Shown: positions 624-51,900 of the stretch, in pieces
Layout: the number at the start of each line of letters is the position of its first letter
Position numbering within the stretch: position 1 is the first letter of the stretch
From: Gadus chalcogrammus
Taxonomy: Eukaryota; Chordata; Actinopteri; Gadiformes; Gadidae
Assembly: GCF_026213295.1 (NCBI RefSeq)
Contig: NC_079414.1
Span: forward strand, 21,636,313 to 21,700,312
Direction: 5' to 3'
DNA length: 64,000 nt
Made by a program: the position numbers and the translations under genes
The notes under the pieces: model-generated
Seen by the model: the letters and a program-made list of their open reading frames with translations, nothing else
Told to the model about the DNA's origin: nothing
Databases searched by the model: none

Positions 624-3600
624 CTCTGGGCAGGGCTCCACGTTGCAGTCTCGGTTGGAGCAGTGTCCGTCGTCGGGCCAGAAAGGACATGGACGCTTCA
701 GGTTCACCTGCAAGGAACAGTAGACCAGTCAAACCAGTCCTTCACATGCTGCCACTGGTTAACTACAGCGTGACCAGTCAAACCAGTCCTTCACATGCTG
801 CCCATGCCACCTAAGCGACACACGCCTGCTGCCTTAACAACGACGTCCCAAAATGCATATTTTAGTTTCAAAATATGATACAAAAGTATAAAATAATCTA
901 AACATTATACACTCTCTGTGTATAGATCAAGACAGACGTGCAGCCTGACAGCCTGAATATTTTTAAAACACGGAGGCTAGCGTGTAGCGATGCTACGGGT
1001 GGGTTCGGTCTCGGGCCTGTGTTGACCAGGGGTGGTGGTCCAGGGTGGGTTGAGGTGGAGAGGTGGGGATTACAGAGCAGCTCAGCCTGGGTTCAGGGAG
1101 GAGGACCCAGGTCGACCCTGGTGAGGGCCAAACCACACCGCCTCGTCCTGCACAGGGGCCAACGCCGCCCACGTCCTGCCATCCATTTGCTTGTGGGTTT
1201 GTACGTATGTGGTCTTAAACGCTAACCCGCCCCCCTGTGCACACTGTCACGTGACATGTACATGCAGGCAGCTCTGCAAAGGTCTGAGGGGGGGCCTCCG
1301 AGTCCCGACACGGCCCCCGGCCAACGTGGGGTACATACATAGTCGTGTGGATCAGCCTGTACTCTCTCACCACCAGTAGGACCAAGCACTGGTGGTTTCT
1401 GGGGAACTAGTTAACATAGAACGAAAAACGACTGCAACCCAGTCCACCCACACTCCCAGTCCCTTCAGGAAGTTGATGGAGAGCCTTCAGCACGTGTTCA
1501 GCTGAACCTCATTTGACTTTAGATAGCATAACAGATATGCAAATCAATTTCCAGGCCGACGATGTCTCTGTGACAATAACACGAGGCGGCTATTCGCCCA
1601 GACCCTTTGGCGGAGCTGCGGTTCACCATGAAGACAAAGGGGTTGAGAAGAGGAAGGGCTCTGTTATCTTTAACAGGAAGCGCCTGTTTAGTAGTGACAG
1701 AAGAAGAAGAAGAAGAAGAAGTGCATCTGTTTGAGGTAACACTACACCTGCAGCCTTCCCGTGGGCTCATGGTGTCTCTGGACGTGAACCTGGGCCACAT
1801 TATGTAGCAGACAGAAGATGTGTTATCTGAAGCGGTTGTGTAGATATAAAGTCAGGACAGTATTTTTAGACCAGCTCTGTGTCTACACACAGAGCTTAAC
1901 CATCAACCTGGATAACACCTGCCTATTAGCACGGTAGAGAGTGGTACTAGTGCTACTCACTTAGTGGTACTGACCTAGTGGTACTGACCTAGTGATAGTA
2001 ATCTAGTGGAACTATCCTAGTGATAGTAACGTATTGTACTGACCTTGTGACCTAGTTGTACTAACCTAGTGATAGTAACCTAGTGGTACTGACCTAGCGA
2101 TAGTAACCTAGTACTGACCTAATGATAGTTGACTAGTGGTACTCACCTAGCGGTACCACCAACCTAGTGGTACTTACCCGGTAGTATCTGAAGAAGTCTC
2201 TCTCGGTCAGCCTCTTGACACGGGGGTAGATCTTGAAGTTGTTGAAGGAGTCGATGCTCTCGATGTCACAGAAGCAGTCATCCAGCACCCCTGTCAGCTG
2301 AAAACACCACCAACACACCAACAAGTGGAGTCAGTCACCCCACCATAACTACACTACCTACCTACCACCCAGTGACTACACCCCAGTACCTTGCCTAGCA
2401 GCTGGTTCTACGTGTGGACACCCAGCACATAAACACCACCCTGAGAGCGTCCAGGGAACTAGGTATAAGGGTCGGTAAATGAGGGACATGCGTTTGCCAT
2501 GGTAAACAAAGCATCTCCTACCATGAACAAACAAATACAGAGTGGCCAGTTTCAGTGAAACTAGGTTGCATTGCTTCAAAATGGTATGAGTGCTGACCTC
2601 GGGGTAGAGACGTCCAGATATCACCGCCAAGCAGGTGAAGACCCCGTACCATATGGACAGAGTTCGGCCGATCATAGCGCAGAAAGCTGTCCCTTGTTCA
2701 CTACTCTACTCCAGCGTCGCTGAATGCACAACACTTCATTTGGCACTTGAGTCTTGCACTTACTCAACAGTTTTCCTCTCATTAATGAATGAAACTTCTG
2801 AACTGACAGCTGCTGGGAACATGTCTAGTGTTTTATTCCTGCTTTGGCCCCGCCTCCAAACACAAATGAGCGTCAAGTGCTGTCAAACGTAGCCCTGCCC
2901 TAAAGATGGACGACTGTAGTTGAATAAAGTGCTGACATGAATCGTAGGCAACGGCTTGTTCTTATTGGAAAGACTACAAGTCCCAGAGATAAACAATGGG
3001 CAAGCCTCCCGTGTAGCCAATCAGAGCACACCACGCTGCCTGAGAAACAGTTAATAACAGTACTTCAAAAATCACATTGCGTCCAGTGTTTAAAGTGCTT
3101 CTTATTTATTAAGTGAATTTGAGCTTTTGAAACGTGTCTTTAGCGGATAGGTACTTGAAACATTAGTAAGATCAATAGTCTATAAAGGGTGGTAGAGATC
3201 GACACGTATACGCTTCTGTGACATGGAACTATATATTCTACATAGACTAAATTCAAGAGAAATAAACACACTGTAATCAGAAAGGCAACTTACAGAATGA
3301 GTTCACATGGAAATATAACTATTGTATAAAACTATTTCTCTTAAACGGACAAGATAATATTCGTTTGTGACTTCGCTGAAGGCTGTTCAGACAACCCCAA
3401 CATGTTGAAGGTTTTTTCTGATTTCTCTCATATATGGCTGGTGATGGCATAAAGGCACTGATGCCATAAATATAAATATTGTGTTAATATAGTGTAACAT
3501 CGTAGTTATATCTTGTTTCAAAAGTGTTTACATCTAGTTATACTGTATCGTGTTTATACAAAGGTGTGAGTCTAGTTCAGTTGGCCGTCATCACTCGTCC

Positions 3601-48900: not shown

Positions 48901-51900
48901 CCACCGGACCAGGTGGTCATCACATTAACATCTGGACCACCGGACCAGGCGGTCATCGCATTAACATCTGGACCACCGGACCAGGTGGTCATCGCATTAA
49001 CATCTGGACCACCGGACCAGGCGGTCATCACATTAACATCTGGATCACAGGACCAGGCGGTCATCACATTAACATCTGGATCACAGGACCAGGCGGTCAT
49101 CACATTAACATCTGGATCACAGGACCAGGCGGTCATCACATTAACATCTGGATCACAGGACCAGGCGGTCATCACATTAACATCTGGATCCCGGGACCAG
49201 GCGGTCATCACATTAACATCTGGATCACAGGACCAGGCGGTCATCACACTAACATCTGGATCCCGGGACCAGGCGGTCATCACATTAACATCTGGATCAC
49301 AGGACCAGGCGGTCATCACATTAACATCTGGATCACGGGACCAGGCGGTCATCACATTAACATCTGGATCCCGGGACCAGGCGGTCATCACATTAACATC
49401 TGGATCCCGGGACCAGGCGGTTATCTCATCTGGAGCCCTGCCGCTAATCCTAGCAGTAGTAGTAGTACTATAGCAGAAGAGGCAGCAGTGGTAGTACTAT
49501 AGCAGTAGAGGCAGCAGTAGTAGTACTATAGCAGCAGAGGCAGCAGTAGTAGTACTATAGCAGTAGAGGCAGCAGTGGTAGTACTATAGCAGTAGAGGTA
49601 GCGTTGAGGAGACTCACTGGCGATCATGATGGTCTTGGAGTTCCCTCCCAGGCTGTCCTTGAGGAGCCAGGTGAGGACAGAGTCTCGGTACGGGACGAAC
49701 AGAGACCTCTTCTTCAGGTTAGTGTTCACCGTGTCCTGACTCTGGTCCGCTACACACACACACGCACACATAAGCACAAACGTTAGCAGGGTTGACAGCA
49801 GACGGTGGCTACCCTTAGATCAACCTAGCGCCACAACCTAGCTACATGCTGGAAGAGCCAACGCTGTGTGATTGGTTGGGAAGTTTTTGTGATGAATAAC
49901 TTAGGTGACATCACAGGACAGCGCACTGTTTACAGTAGATCGGTAACCCACCCAGCGCTGAGATGACGTTGCCGAGGGTAACCAGGGACTTGTTGATGTT
50001 CCCGCCCTCCTTGAGACGCACGCCGGTGGCTCCGGTGGCGTCGGCCCGCTCGCTGCCCGCCAGGTCCACCAGGTGGATCTGACTCACGGTCTCACTGGGC
50101 AGCTCCGCAGCAAACCGGGCCTGGGAGAGAGACACAGCAGGACATGGAGAGAGAGAGAGAGAGAGACCCAGCAGGACATGGAGAGAGAGAGAGAGACACA
50201 GCAGGACATGGAGAGAGAGAGAGGGGGGAGAGAGACACAGCAGGACATGGAGAGAGAGAGGGAGAGAGACACAGCAGGACATGGAGAGAGAGAGGGAGAG
50301 AGACACAGCAGGACATGGAGAGAGAGAGAGGGAGACATAGCAGGACACAGAGAGAGCGAGAGGGGGAGAGAGGGAGAGAGAGAGGAGGGTTATAGGTGTG
50401 GGACCTATGTGAAGTGTTAAACGGGTTCTGATTGGATCTGGGTCCTGTGTGAAGTGTTAAACTGGTTCTGATTGGTTGTGGGACCTGTGTGAAGTGTTAA
50501 ACTGGTTCTGATTGGGTGTGGGACCTGTACGAGGTGTTAAACTGGTTCTGATTGGGTGTGGGACCTGTGTGAGGTGTTAAACTGGTTCTGATTGGGTGTG
50601 GGACCTGTACGAGGTGTTAAACTGGTTCTGATTGGGTGTGGGACCTGTACGAGGTGTTAAACTGGTTCTGATTGGGTGTGGGACCTGTACGAGGTGTTAA
50701 ACTGGTTCTGATTGGGTGTGGGACCTGTGTGAGGTGTTAAACTGGTTCTGATTGGGTGTGGGACCTGTGTGAGGTGTTAAACTGGTTCTGGTCCCGACCT
50801 GAGTGAAGTTGATGGTGAATATGGCGTGGGAGCGGCTGCTCGTTTCGTTCATCCCGGTGCTCGCCGTGGTGCGCTTGATGTTCCCCGCCTCCATCAGCTC
50901 CTCCACGTCCCGGTAGTTCTGAACCAGGTGCTTGGACAGATCTGGATTAACAAGGGATGAGTTTAGATCCGGTTTCACATTAGAGATGAGTTTAGATCCG
51001 GATTCCCATAAGATGAGGTAAGATCTGGATTCCCATAAGATGAGGTAAGATCTGGATTCCCATAAGATGAGGTAATATCTGGATTAGGGAGGGGGGGTCT
51101 TACCCTCTACATACGGCCCATCTTTGGGGTGCTCCCGGACTCTGAGGTTAAAGGTGTCGTTGGTCTTCCTTCTCAGCAGGTCCCTCACACACTCGTTATA
51201 GATCTCCAGGTAGCTGTAGAACCCACGCCCCACAGGGTTTACTACTGAACCCATCCCCTAACCCTAACCTTAGAGAGGACCCAGTGCTCCACACTTCATG
51301 ACAGTCCACCTCTTAATATTGATTACTCTATCGGCTGCCTCCTAATTGGCAGTTTCTAATTGACTCAATCCTAAATGGCTTTTACTCATTTGTTTAATGT
51401 AATTACTTGTTCCTAATTGTCTGGTCGTAATTGGATGGAGGAGATAAGACTGTTCTAAATGACGCTATTCTCCGTGTTGTTCTATCTTGGTGGTTCTTCG
51501 GGCAGGTTCTCCAGCACAGATCCATCCTCGTGGCAGGGCGGCAGGGTTAACTCACCTGACCTCGGTCCTGAACGAGGCCGCGTCCCGGCGGGTGGTCCCC
51601 GCGATGCGGCTGAACAGACCCTCACAGATCCGGGGGATGAGGCCCACGTCTCCCTGGAGGTGGATCAGAAGGTCAGATCACCACTTCCAGGTCCACACCC
51701 CACCGCCCCAGGTCCCCGTCGACCTGCAGTCTCACCGACGGTGCCCCCATCCGCAGGTCGGCCTCCAGCTCTCCTGTCGCCCCAGAGCTGAACTAATTCT
51801 ATTCCCAGACCTTCTCAGCTCTCATTTGACGAGACTGCCACATTAAACAGAGTAGAATAAGAATAGAACAGATCTATATTTGCTGGAAAGGCAGAGGGTC

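Follow-up and report, generated by a model that had tools for sequence, protein, structure and literature searches.

The DNA analysed in this work is a 64 kb window of Gadus chalcogrammus (contig NC_079414.1, positions 21,636,313 to 21,700,312) that is represented by one sequence, and its subject is the tandem arrays that run across the exon-intron junctions of the genes in it. Five genes were modelled in the window. The kif16b gene (minus strand, 55292-30997) consists of 26 exons and the esf1 gene (minus strand, 16152-8118) consists of 13 exons. The ndufaf5 gene (plus strand, about 17292-23533, with an uncertain start) consists of 11 exons. The ero1b gene (minus strand) and a BTBD6-like gene (plus strand, about 5094-7088, PDB match 2vkp) are partial models, the former covering exons 2-4. 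Copies of sequence that pass through the real junctions were identified well above the control, and their frequency is close to that expected from duplications placed at random.

Gene models and repeat content

Human proteins served as queries for locating the exons, by tblastn and with a small spliced aligner, and the exons were then refined by reading frame and GT-AG. The models of kif16b, esf1, and ndufaf5 exhibit open frames without internal stops and GT-AG introns, and their exon numbering agrees with that of an earlier note on this DNA. The models of ero1b and the BTBD6-like gene were placed largely by eye. The boundaries of ndufaf5 exon 1, esf1 exons 4/5 and 10, and kif16b exon 23 are less certain and were set by frame and consensus. 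The five models give 52 introns and 104 junctions (52 donors and 52 acceptors).

The introns of the modelled genes total 33.7 kb with a median of 482 nucleotides (nt), and the median is 219.5 nt once the arrays are collapsed. Tandem Repeats Finder (TRF) reported 145 rows across the window. Only six TRF arrays with a period of at least 9 are entirely exonic in the modelled genes. All six are at most 80 nt long and are located in esf1 exons 7-9 or in the charged exon 19 of kif16b. Tandem repeats make up more than 80% of 13 of the 52 introns of the modelled genes, with examples in kif16b at 46036-47357, 48869-49617, and 50121-50798.

Copies of exon-intron junctions

Each junction was represented by a probe of up to 40 exon nt and 20 intron nt that was aligned through the boundary against the neighbouring intron over a length of up to 300 nt. 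In the mispaired control, exon probes of donors and of acceptors were aligned to introns that belong to other donors and other acceptors, respectively, so that the splice consensus and the repeat content are preserved. A junction was counted when each side scored at least 8 and the total was at least 20. Junction-spanning copies were identified at 12 of the 104 junctions compared with 0.67 expected from the control, with four of the 52 donors (0.22 expected) and eight of the 52 acceptors (0.45 expected). The exon part alone scored at least 18 at three donors (0.12 expected) and five acceptors (0.08 expected), which is eight of 104 junctions against 0.20 expected. The acceptor of kif16b exon 15 (score 18, p 0.039) is below the counting threshold, and the donor of kif16b exon 7 (p 0.07 for the total score) was also not counted.

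Each junction was compared with 102 controls, so the minimum attainable p is 0.0097. The exon part alone exceeds all 102 controls at seven junctions, where 12-36 coding nt are copied. These are the acceptors of esf1 exons 2 and 3, the donors of esf1 exon 9, ndufaf5 exon 5, and kif16b exon 21, and the acceptors of kif16b exons 25 and 26. The acceptors of kif16b exons 7, 10, 20, and 24 and of esf1 exon 9 exhibit a strong match on the intron side that extends 4-10 nt into the exon, and their exon part alone is not above the control. Seven junctions of kif16b are affected when exon 26 is included. The coordinates and units of all arrays are shown in Table 1.

The earlier note had listed ten junctions at which the real splice site forms the end of an array. 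The total score exceeds the control at all ten, and the exon part alone does so at only five. The observation itself is confirmed. The donors of ero1b exon 2 and esf1 exon 8 are clearly repeated on the intron side only, and the boundary of kif16b exon 26 is not copied. Four junctions were added to the ten, which are the acceptors of esf1 exons 2 and 9, the donor of esf1 exon 9, and the acceptor of kif16b exon 24. The note was correct in stating that several unrelated units are present and not one spreading repeat family, as the units and their lengths differ.

The shared splice consensus alone, or chance similarity in repeat-rich DNA, could account for the donors of esf1 exon 8 and ero1b exon 2, where the copies are of the intronic side of the donor, and for the five acceptors whose short exon part (4-10 nt) does not exceed the control. 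As an explanation of the arrays as a whole it is hardly credible. The mispaired controls share both the consensus and the repeat content and yet give 0.67 against 12, and the coding nt copied at the seven junctions are each above every control, so that the explanation is refuted for those seven. The copied coding sequence of ndufaf5 exon 5, esf1 exon 3, and kif16b exons 25 and 26 is conserved with human, and the exon is therefore the source of the copies.

Table 1. Arrays at exon-intron junctions in the window. A caret marks the exon-intron boundary, and p values are those of the mispaired control.
Junction	Position	Strand	Array	Real site and copies	Exon nt copied	p (total)	p (exon part)
ero1b exon 2 donor	1947..2182	-	14/28-nt array of donor-like sequence (GGTNAGTACCACTA); clear repetition on intron side only	exon ends 2178, intron starts 2177; six more donor-like sites listed		0.0097	0.98
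esf1 exon 2 acceptor	15285..15725	-	37-nt unit ATTCAG^GGACTAAACAAAAGCT; interrupted by tRNA-SINE-like (short interspersed element) sequence, by eye	real site 15300; five decoys with AG	14-19		0.0097
esf1 exon 3 acceptor	14190..14560	-	(GT)n, AG, and first 36 coding nt duplicated upstream (score 97); whole unit without a TRF row	real site 14225; upstream copies start 14505 and 14312 (AG changed to TG in one copy only)	36	0.0097	0.0097
esf1 exon 8 donor	10310..10832	-	29/44-nt array beginning at donor; clear repetition on intron side only			0.0097	0.58
esf1 exon 9 acceptor	10236..10273	-	17-nt unit, 2 copies with GGCAACAG		4		0.33
esf1 exon 9 donor	9981..10134	-	58-nt unit including last coding nt	GT kept in 0 of 2 decoys	13 by alignment (about 17 by eye)		0.0097
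ndufaf5 exon 5 donor	19684..19877	+	last about 31 coding nt (conserved NTFDLV.SS) and GTGATG	real intron starts 19715; intronic copies at 19758, 19793, and 19835 (GT kept, 3 of 4) and 19870 (GT lost)	29-32	0.0097	0.0097
kif16b exon 7 acceptor	50938..51085	-	27-nt unit AATCCAG^ATCT		4	0.0097	0.28
kif16b exon 10 acceptor	48864..49429	-	36-nt unit TCCAG^ATGTT	15 decoys at even spacing	5	0.0097	0.09
kif16b exon 20 acceptor	38386..38769	-	34-nt unit GACCTCCTGTGTGTCCCATCAG^GRGGAG	10 evenly spaced decoys, scores equal to real site	7-10	0.0097	0.25
kif16b exon 21 donor	37591..37952	-	41-nt unit TGAACCTCCTTCAG^GTAGG	8 additional copies, GT kept in 2 of 8	14-17	0.0097	0.0097
kif16b exon 24 acceptor	32301..32659	-	15/38/53-nt array CTATAATCCTAG^ATCC	real site last	up to 7		0.15
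kif16b exon 25 acceptor	31769..32105	-	52-nt unit GACCTGCAG^CTCTCTGCTCTG (12 coding nt)	GACCTGCAG then coding CTCTCTGCTCTG seven times, real one last; 6 decoys, 52-54 nt apart	12-16	0.0097	0.0097
kif16b exon 26 acceptor	31110..31245	-	intron carries an upstream copy of an exon segment like GGAGGTTCTTCCAGGTCATG	AG/boundary itself not copied	about 36	0.0097	0.0097

Placement of the arrays relative to junctions

The coverage of tandem copies was calculated from matches of at least 17 of 20 nt at shifts of 8-300, with simple repeats removed, and it was zero in one shuffled window. No coverage peak was found at the 104 junctions, whether donors or acceptors, and the coverage declines from intron to exon. 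In the intron it reaches 54-60% at a distance of 150-200 nt from the junction and 46% at 60-99 nt, and it drops to 12-13% over the three intron bases next to the boundary and to 9-10% over the three exon bases next to it. Within the exon it is 5-8% with small fluctuations at 7-40 nt and about 3% at 41-60 nt.

The arrays were collapsed to one unit because coverage is inflated by expansion. In the random-seeding null, one unit per array was dropped at random on the collapsed intron with a floor of 60 nt. The set consists of 54 arrays, of which those of esf1 exon 3 and kif16b exon 26 were added by hand with approximate units. Arrays that reach at least 12 exon nt number 7 compared with 8.3 expected (95% range 4-13), and these are the arrays of the seven junctions whose exon part is above the control. 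Arrays that reach at least 4 exon nt number 12, the five cases with a short exon part included, compared with 12.1 expected (95% range 7-18). Under the other two rules for unit length, 11.0 and 7.4 arrays are expected at the 12-nt cutoff and 14.6 and 11.3 at the 4-nt cutoff, and the observed counts are inside the 95% range throughout. When TRF array ends alone are used, 7 of 52 arrays reach at least 4 exon nt compared with 11.3 expected, which is below the random 95% range. The 12 arrays that reach at least 4 exon nt consist of nine at acceptors and three at donors, an excess of acceptors that is not significant (p 0.15).

The random model also separates spanning from other TRF arrays by rank, with an area under the curve of 0.78 (p 0.003) for 10 of 52 arrays labelled as spanning by the analyst. 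The median collapsed intron is 116 nt for spanning arrays and 290.5 nt for the others. The high frequency of junction-spanning arrays is thus attributed to the heavy repeat load and to underlying introns that are short compared with the length of the repeat unit. These counts suggest that the spanning frequency is about that expected from random, tolerated duplications.

The earlier note had proposed a local process that repeatedly duplicates segments at exon boundaries. A mutational process directed at junctions, such as one involving co-transcriptional R-loops or spliceosome-linked breaks, would fit the several unrelated units and genes that are affected, as well as the roughly threefold higher density of arrays in introns relative to sequence outside the gene models. 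It is nevertheless very improbable. The coverage exhibits no peak at junctions, the spanning counts (7 against 8.3 and 12 against 12.1) are inside the random range under all three rules for unit length and below it by TRF ends, and the random model ranks the arrays that span. No excess of spanning arrays over random placement was found, and junction-directed duplication was rejected on this and on the missing peak. The note had itself named an equal rate under random placement as the result that would speak against a local process, and the near-equal rate found here comes close to that outcome.

Decoy sites and reading frame

The extra copies of splice sites within the arrays are referred to here as decoys. 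Unbroken series of decoy acceptors with AG are present at kif16b exon 10 (15 decoys), exon 20 (10 decoys), and exon 25 (6 decoys). The search patterns contain AG for most acceptors and GT for ndufaf5, so the retention of these dinucleotides was judged from the even spacing or from the sequence itself. Splice sites were scored using a small weight matrix, on which many decoys equal the real site.

The frame test consists of 44 decoys and leaves out those of kif16b exon 24, those of ero1b, and one of ndufaf5. The use of 29 decoys would truncate the protein, and the other 15, all from kif16b exon 10, would keep the frame open. Several decoys add a multiple of three nt and yet reach stops (3 of 10 at kif16b exon 20, 2 of 6 at kif16b exon 25, 1 of 5 at esf1 exon 2, and 1 of 2 at ndufaf5 exon 5). 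Selection for in-frame units was considered and dropped, as no decoys other than those of kif16b exon 10 remain open.

Since 29 of the 44 decoys would truncate, most of these proteins would require splicing at the outermost sites. Open frames with the outermost sites are consistent with regular splicing that is undisturbed, as judged from the gene models. The suggestion of the earlier note that arrays are tolerated while the outermost site survives is supported at the sequence level by models that read through with those sites and by the truncating decoys. The survival of the outermost site is partly a truism because any other choice puts copies into the mRNA.

The frame of kif16b exon 10 on the minus strand (48636-49496) is open across all 15 decoy units, and their use would add a repeat of 12 amino acids to the motor domain. 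All 15 decoys are in frame with exon 10, and the insertion would be 9 amino acids plus 12 for each further unit.

The decoys might instead be used as functional tandem splice sites that give regulated isoforms, or as the source of insertions of 12 amino acids per unit in the kif16b motor domain at exon 10. The many decoys that equal the real site in the splice matrix, the 15 of 15 open decoys of exon 10, and a human intronic variable number tandem repeat (VNTR) in ABCA7 that gives transcripts retaining one repeat unit would favour this explanation. We consider it very unlikely, however, as the truncating decoys argue against it, an insert after KTIMIA at exon 10 would break a motor segment that is conserved with human, and published arrays of this type, which are described below, are said not to disturb splicing.

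Comparison with mirages and related systems

The earlier note knew of no named phenomenon that covers such arrays. That was wrong, as such arrays are called mirages in amphioxus, where they had been named earlier in Adh3, and they are said to be present in other loci and to be variable in length (PMC3087553). The amphioxus mirage loci include Adh3 and the globins BflGb6 and BflGb9, and lancelet PGBD5 and troponin C have been added (PMC3902484). The Adh3 data and globin RT-PCR (reverse transcription polymerase chain reaction) suggest that mirages do not interfere with regular splicing (PMC3087553).

The amphioxus mirages are minisatellite-like repeats across exon-intron boundaries that involve both 5' and 3' splice sites and keep AG/GT in many copies, as do the fish arrays. 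Their units differ by gene in both cases, with 10-72 nt in Adh3 and 150-160 nt in the globins. The original amphioxus Adh paper is reportedly that of Canestro in 2002.

The window contains units that include the junction along with bases from exon and intron. Unrelated units are present at 5' as well as 3' boundaries in several genes, as donors are affected in esf1, ndufaf5, and kif16b (weakly in ero1b), acceptors are affected in esf1 and kif16b, and the unit lengths differ. The fish arrays exhibit these two defining sequence-level features and therefore count as mirages. Unlike the amphioxus case, they are found in a vertebrate with several per gene, their frequency has been set against a random null, and they are known here from sequence alone. 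The fish mirages are remarkable for their density.

Human F7 intron 7 contains several 37-bp repeats of high homology. The first of them holds the real donor, and only the most upstream donor is used normally (PMC6627357). F7 is a single donor case, whereas most of the fish cases are acceptors, where the outermost site is transcribed last and not first. The ABCA7 intron 18 VNTR has a 25-bp unit that begins with the donor dinucleotide, and one unit can be retained in the mRNA through a donor inside the array, apparently at about 2%, while exon skipping rises with array length (PMC5954066). Arrays are thus not always ignored. The ABCA7 case differs from the fish arrays in being human and disease-linked, with kilobase expansion and documented decoy use.

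The gain and sliding of introns in Drosophila resemble the fish arrays in that a tandem duplication contains splice signals and one copy becomes intron (PMC2891723). The Drosophila duplication creates or moves an intron, whereas existing introns lengthen in the fish window. The Atlantic cod genome is like this window in its extremely high tandem-repeat load, and the words splice and exon are absent from the main text of the paper that describes it (PMC5241972).

Two human cases are related to donors and are unlike the acceptor arrays in this respect. A minisatellite with donor copies at an exon end is said to be present in a single human gene and to involve donors only. A 31-bp VNTR across exon 13/intron 13 of CBS is reportedly another single human gene case at a donor, and it was not found in a literature search that covered open-licence literature only. 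A broader search of that literature for VNTRs at splice sites was likewise unproductive.

Proposed origin of the arrays

The arrays are very probably mirage-type minisatellites in a tandem-repeat-rich fish genome that result from random duplication followed by tolerance and expansion. The copies through real junctions above the control, the absence of an excess over random seeding, and the frame constraint are direct observations in the window. Short tandem duplications, with units mostly of about 15-60 nt, would arise at random positions in the genes, presumably by slippage or unequal exchange. Duplications that alter the mRNA would mostly be purged by selection. Those that are intronic or straddle an exon edge would persist, with the extra copies turning into intron, and the straddling ones would survive because the outermost copy keeps a complete exon beside a working splice site. 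The arrays would subsequently expand and homogenise, which would lengthen the introns.

Four observations weigh against random duplication with tolerance in this simple form. The array density of introns is about threefold that of the sequence beyond the gene models (52 in 21.7 kb compared with 15 in 19.4 kb collapsed, p 4e-5), which uniform genome-wide seeding does not explain, and the outside sequence used in this comparison partly belongs to genes left out of the models. Intron 6 of kif16b collapses to 45 nt, which is too short for a working intron, so the assumption of one unit per array fails there. The observed count is biased upward, as the set of 54 includes two arrays that were entered manually on account of their spanning a junction and five of the 12 arrays that reach at least 4 exon nt have an exon part that is not above the control. 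The frame does not force the use of the outermost site at kif16b exon 10, since its 15 decoys keep the frame open.

If splicing proceeds as the tolerance reading supposes, the decoys would be ignored in cells through exon sequence or exon definition for acceptors and through the choice of the most upstream site for donors, as in human F7. Exon content or exon definition is proposed for acceptors because the outermost acceptor is the last to be transcribed, and this is a guess. A stronger and tentative version, which we regard as possible but doubtful, places about one in nine junctions, mostly acceptors, inside a mirage array. In this version, complete 3' splice sites occur in series of 6 to 15 equally scoring repeats of which cells would use the last alone. 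Near-identical upstream acceptors would then be rejected on the basis of exon content or exon definition, regardless of the order of transcription.

The findings extend an amphioxus curiosity to several genes in one vertebrate window, and the control suggests that random duplication and tolerance suffice. If it is true that only the outermost sites are used, the arrays would be ready tests of how the spliceosome chooses among near-identical tandem sites, especially acceptors. They would then amount to natural experiments on how 3' splice sites are chosen and to a steady route by which introns grow from exon edges, and they would illustrate one way in which introns lengthen. The arrays are also a warning that automatic annotation of repeat-rich fish genes could set exon ends on decoys.

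Other features of the window

A possible second first exon of ero1b was identified by eye at 3750-3930 on the minus strand, upstream of the exon at about 2600-2676. It contains an ERO1-like CFC motif, and the two are perhaps alternative first exons. A GC-rich open frame of 616 codons (34900-36749, minus strand) lies within kif16b intron 22. A Pfam search of this frame gave no family, and it may represent an alternative exon or a gene nested in the intron.

Tandem segmental duplication blocks that are 79-89% identical are located at 23436-26321 and 28230-30340, and they contain a copy of part of the last exon of ndufaf5 and a coding stretch for an immunoglobulin domain. A coding stretch for an RRM domain (Pfam RRM_1, 1.7e-11), which belongs to a further gene outside the five models, is located beyond kif16b at about 56760-56930 on the plus strand.

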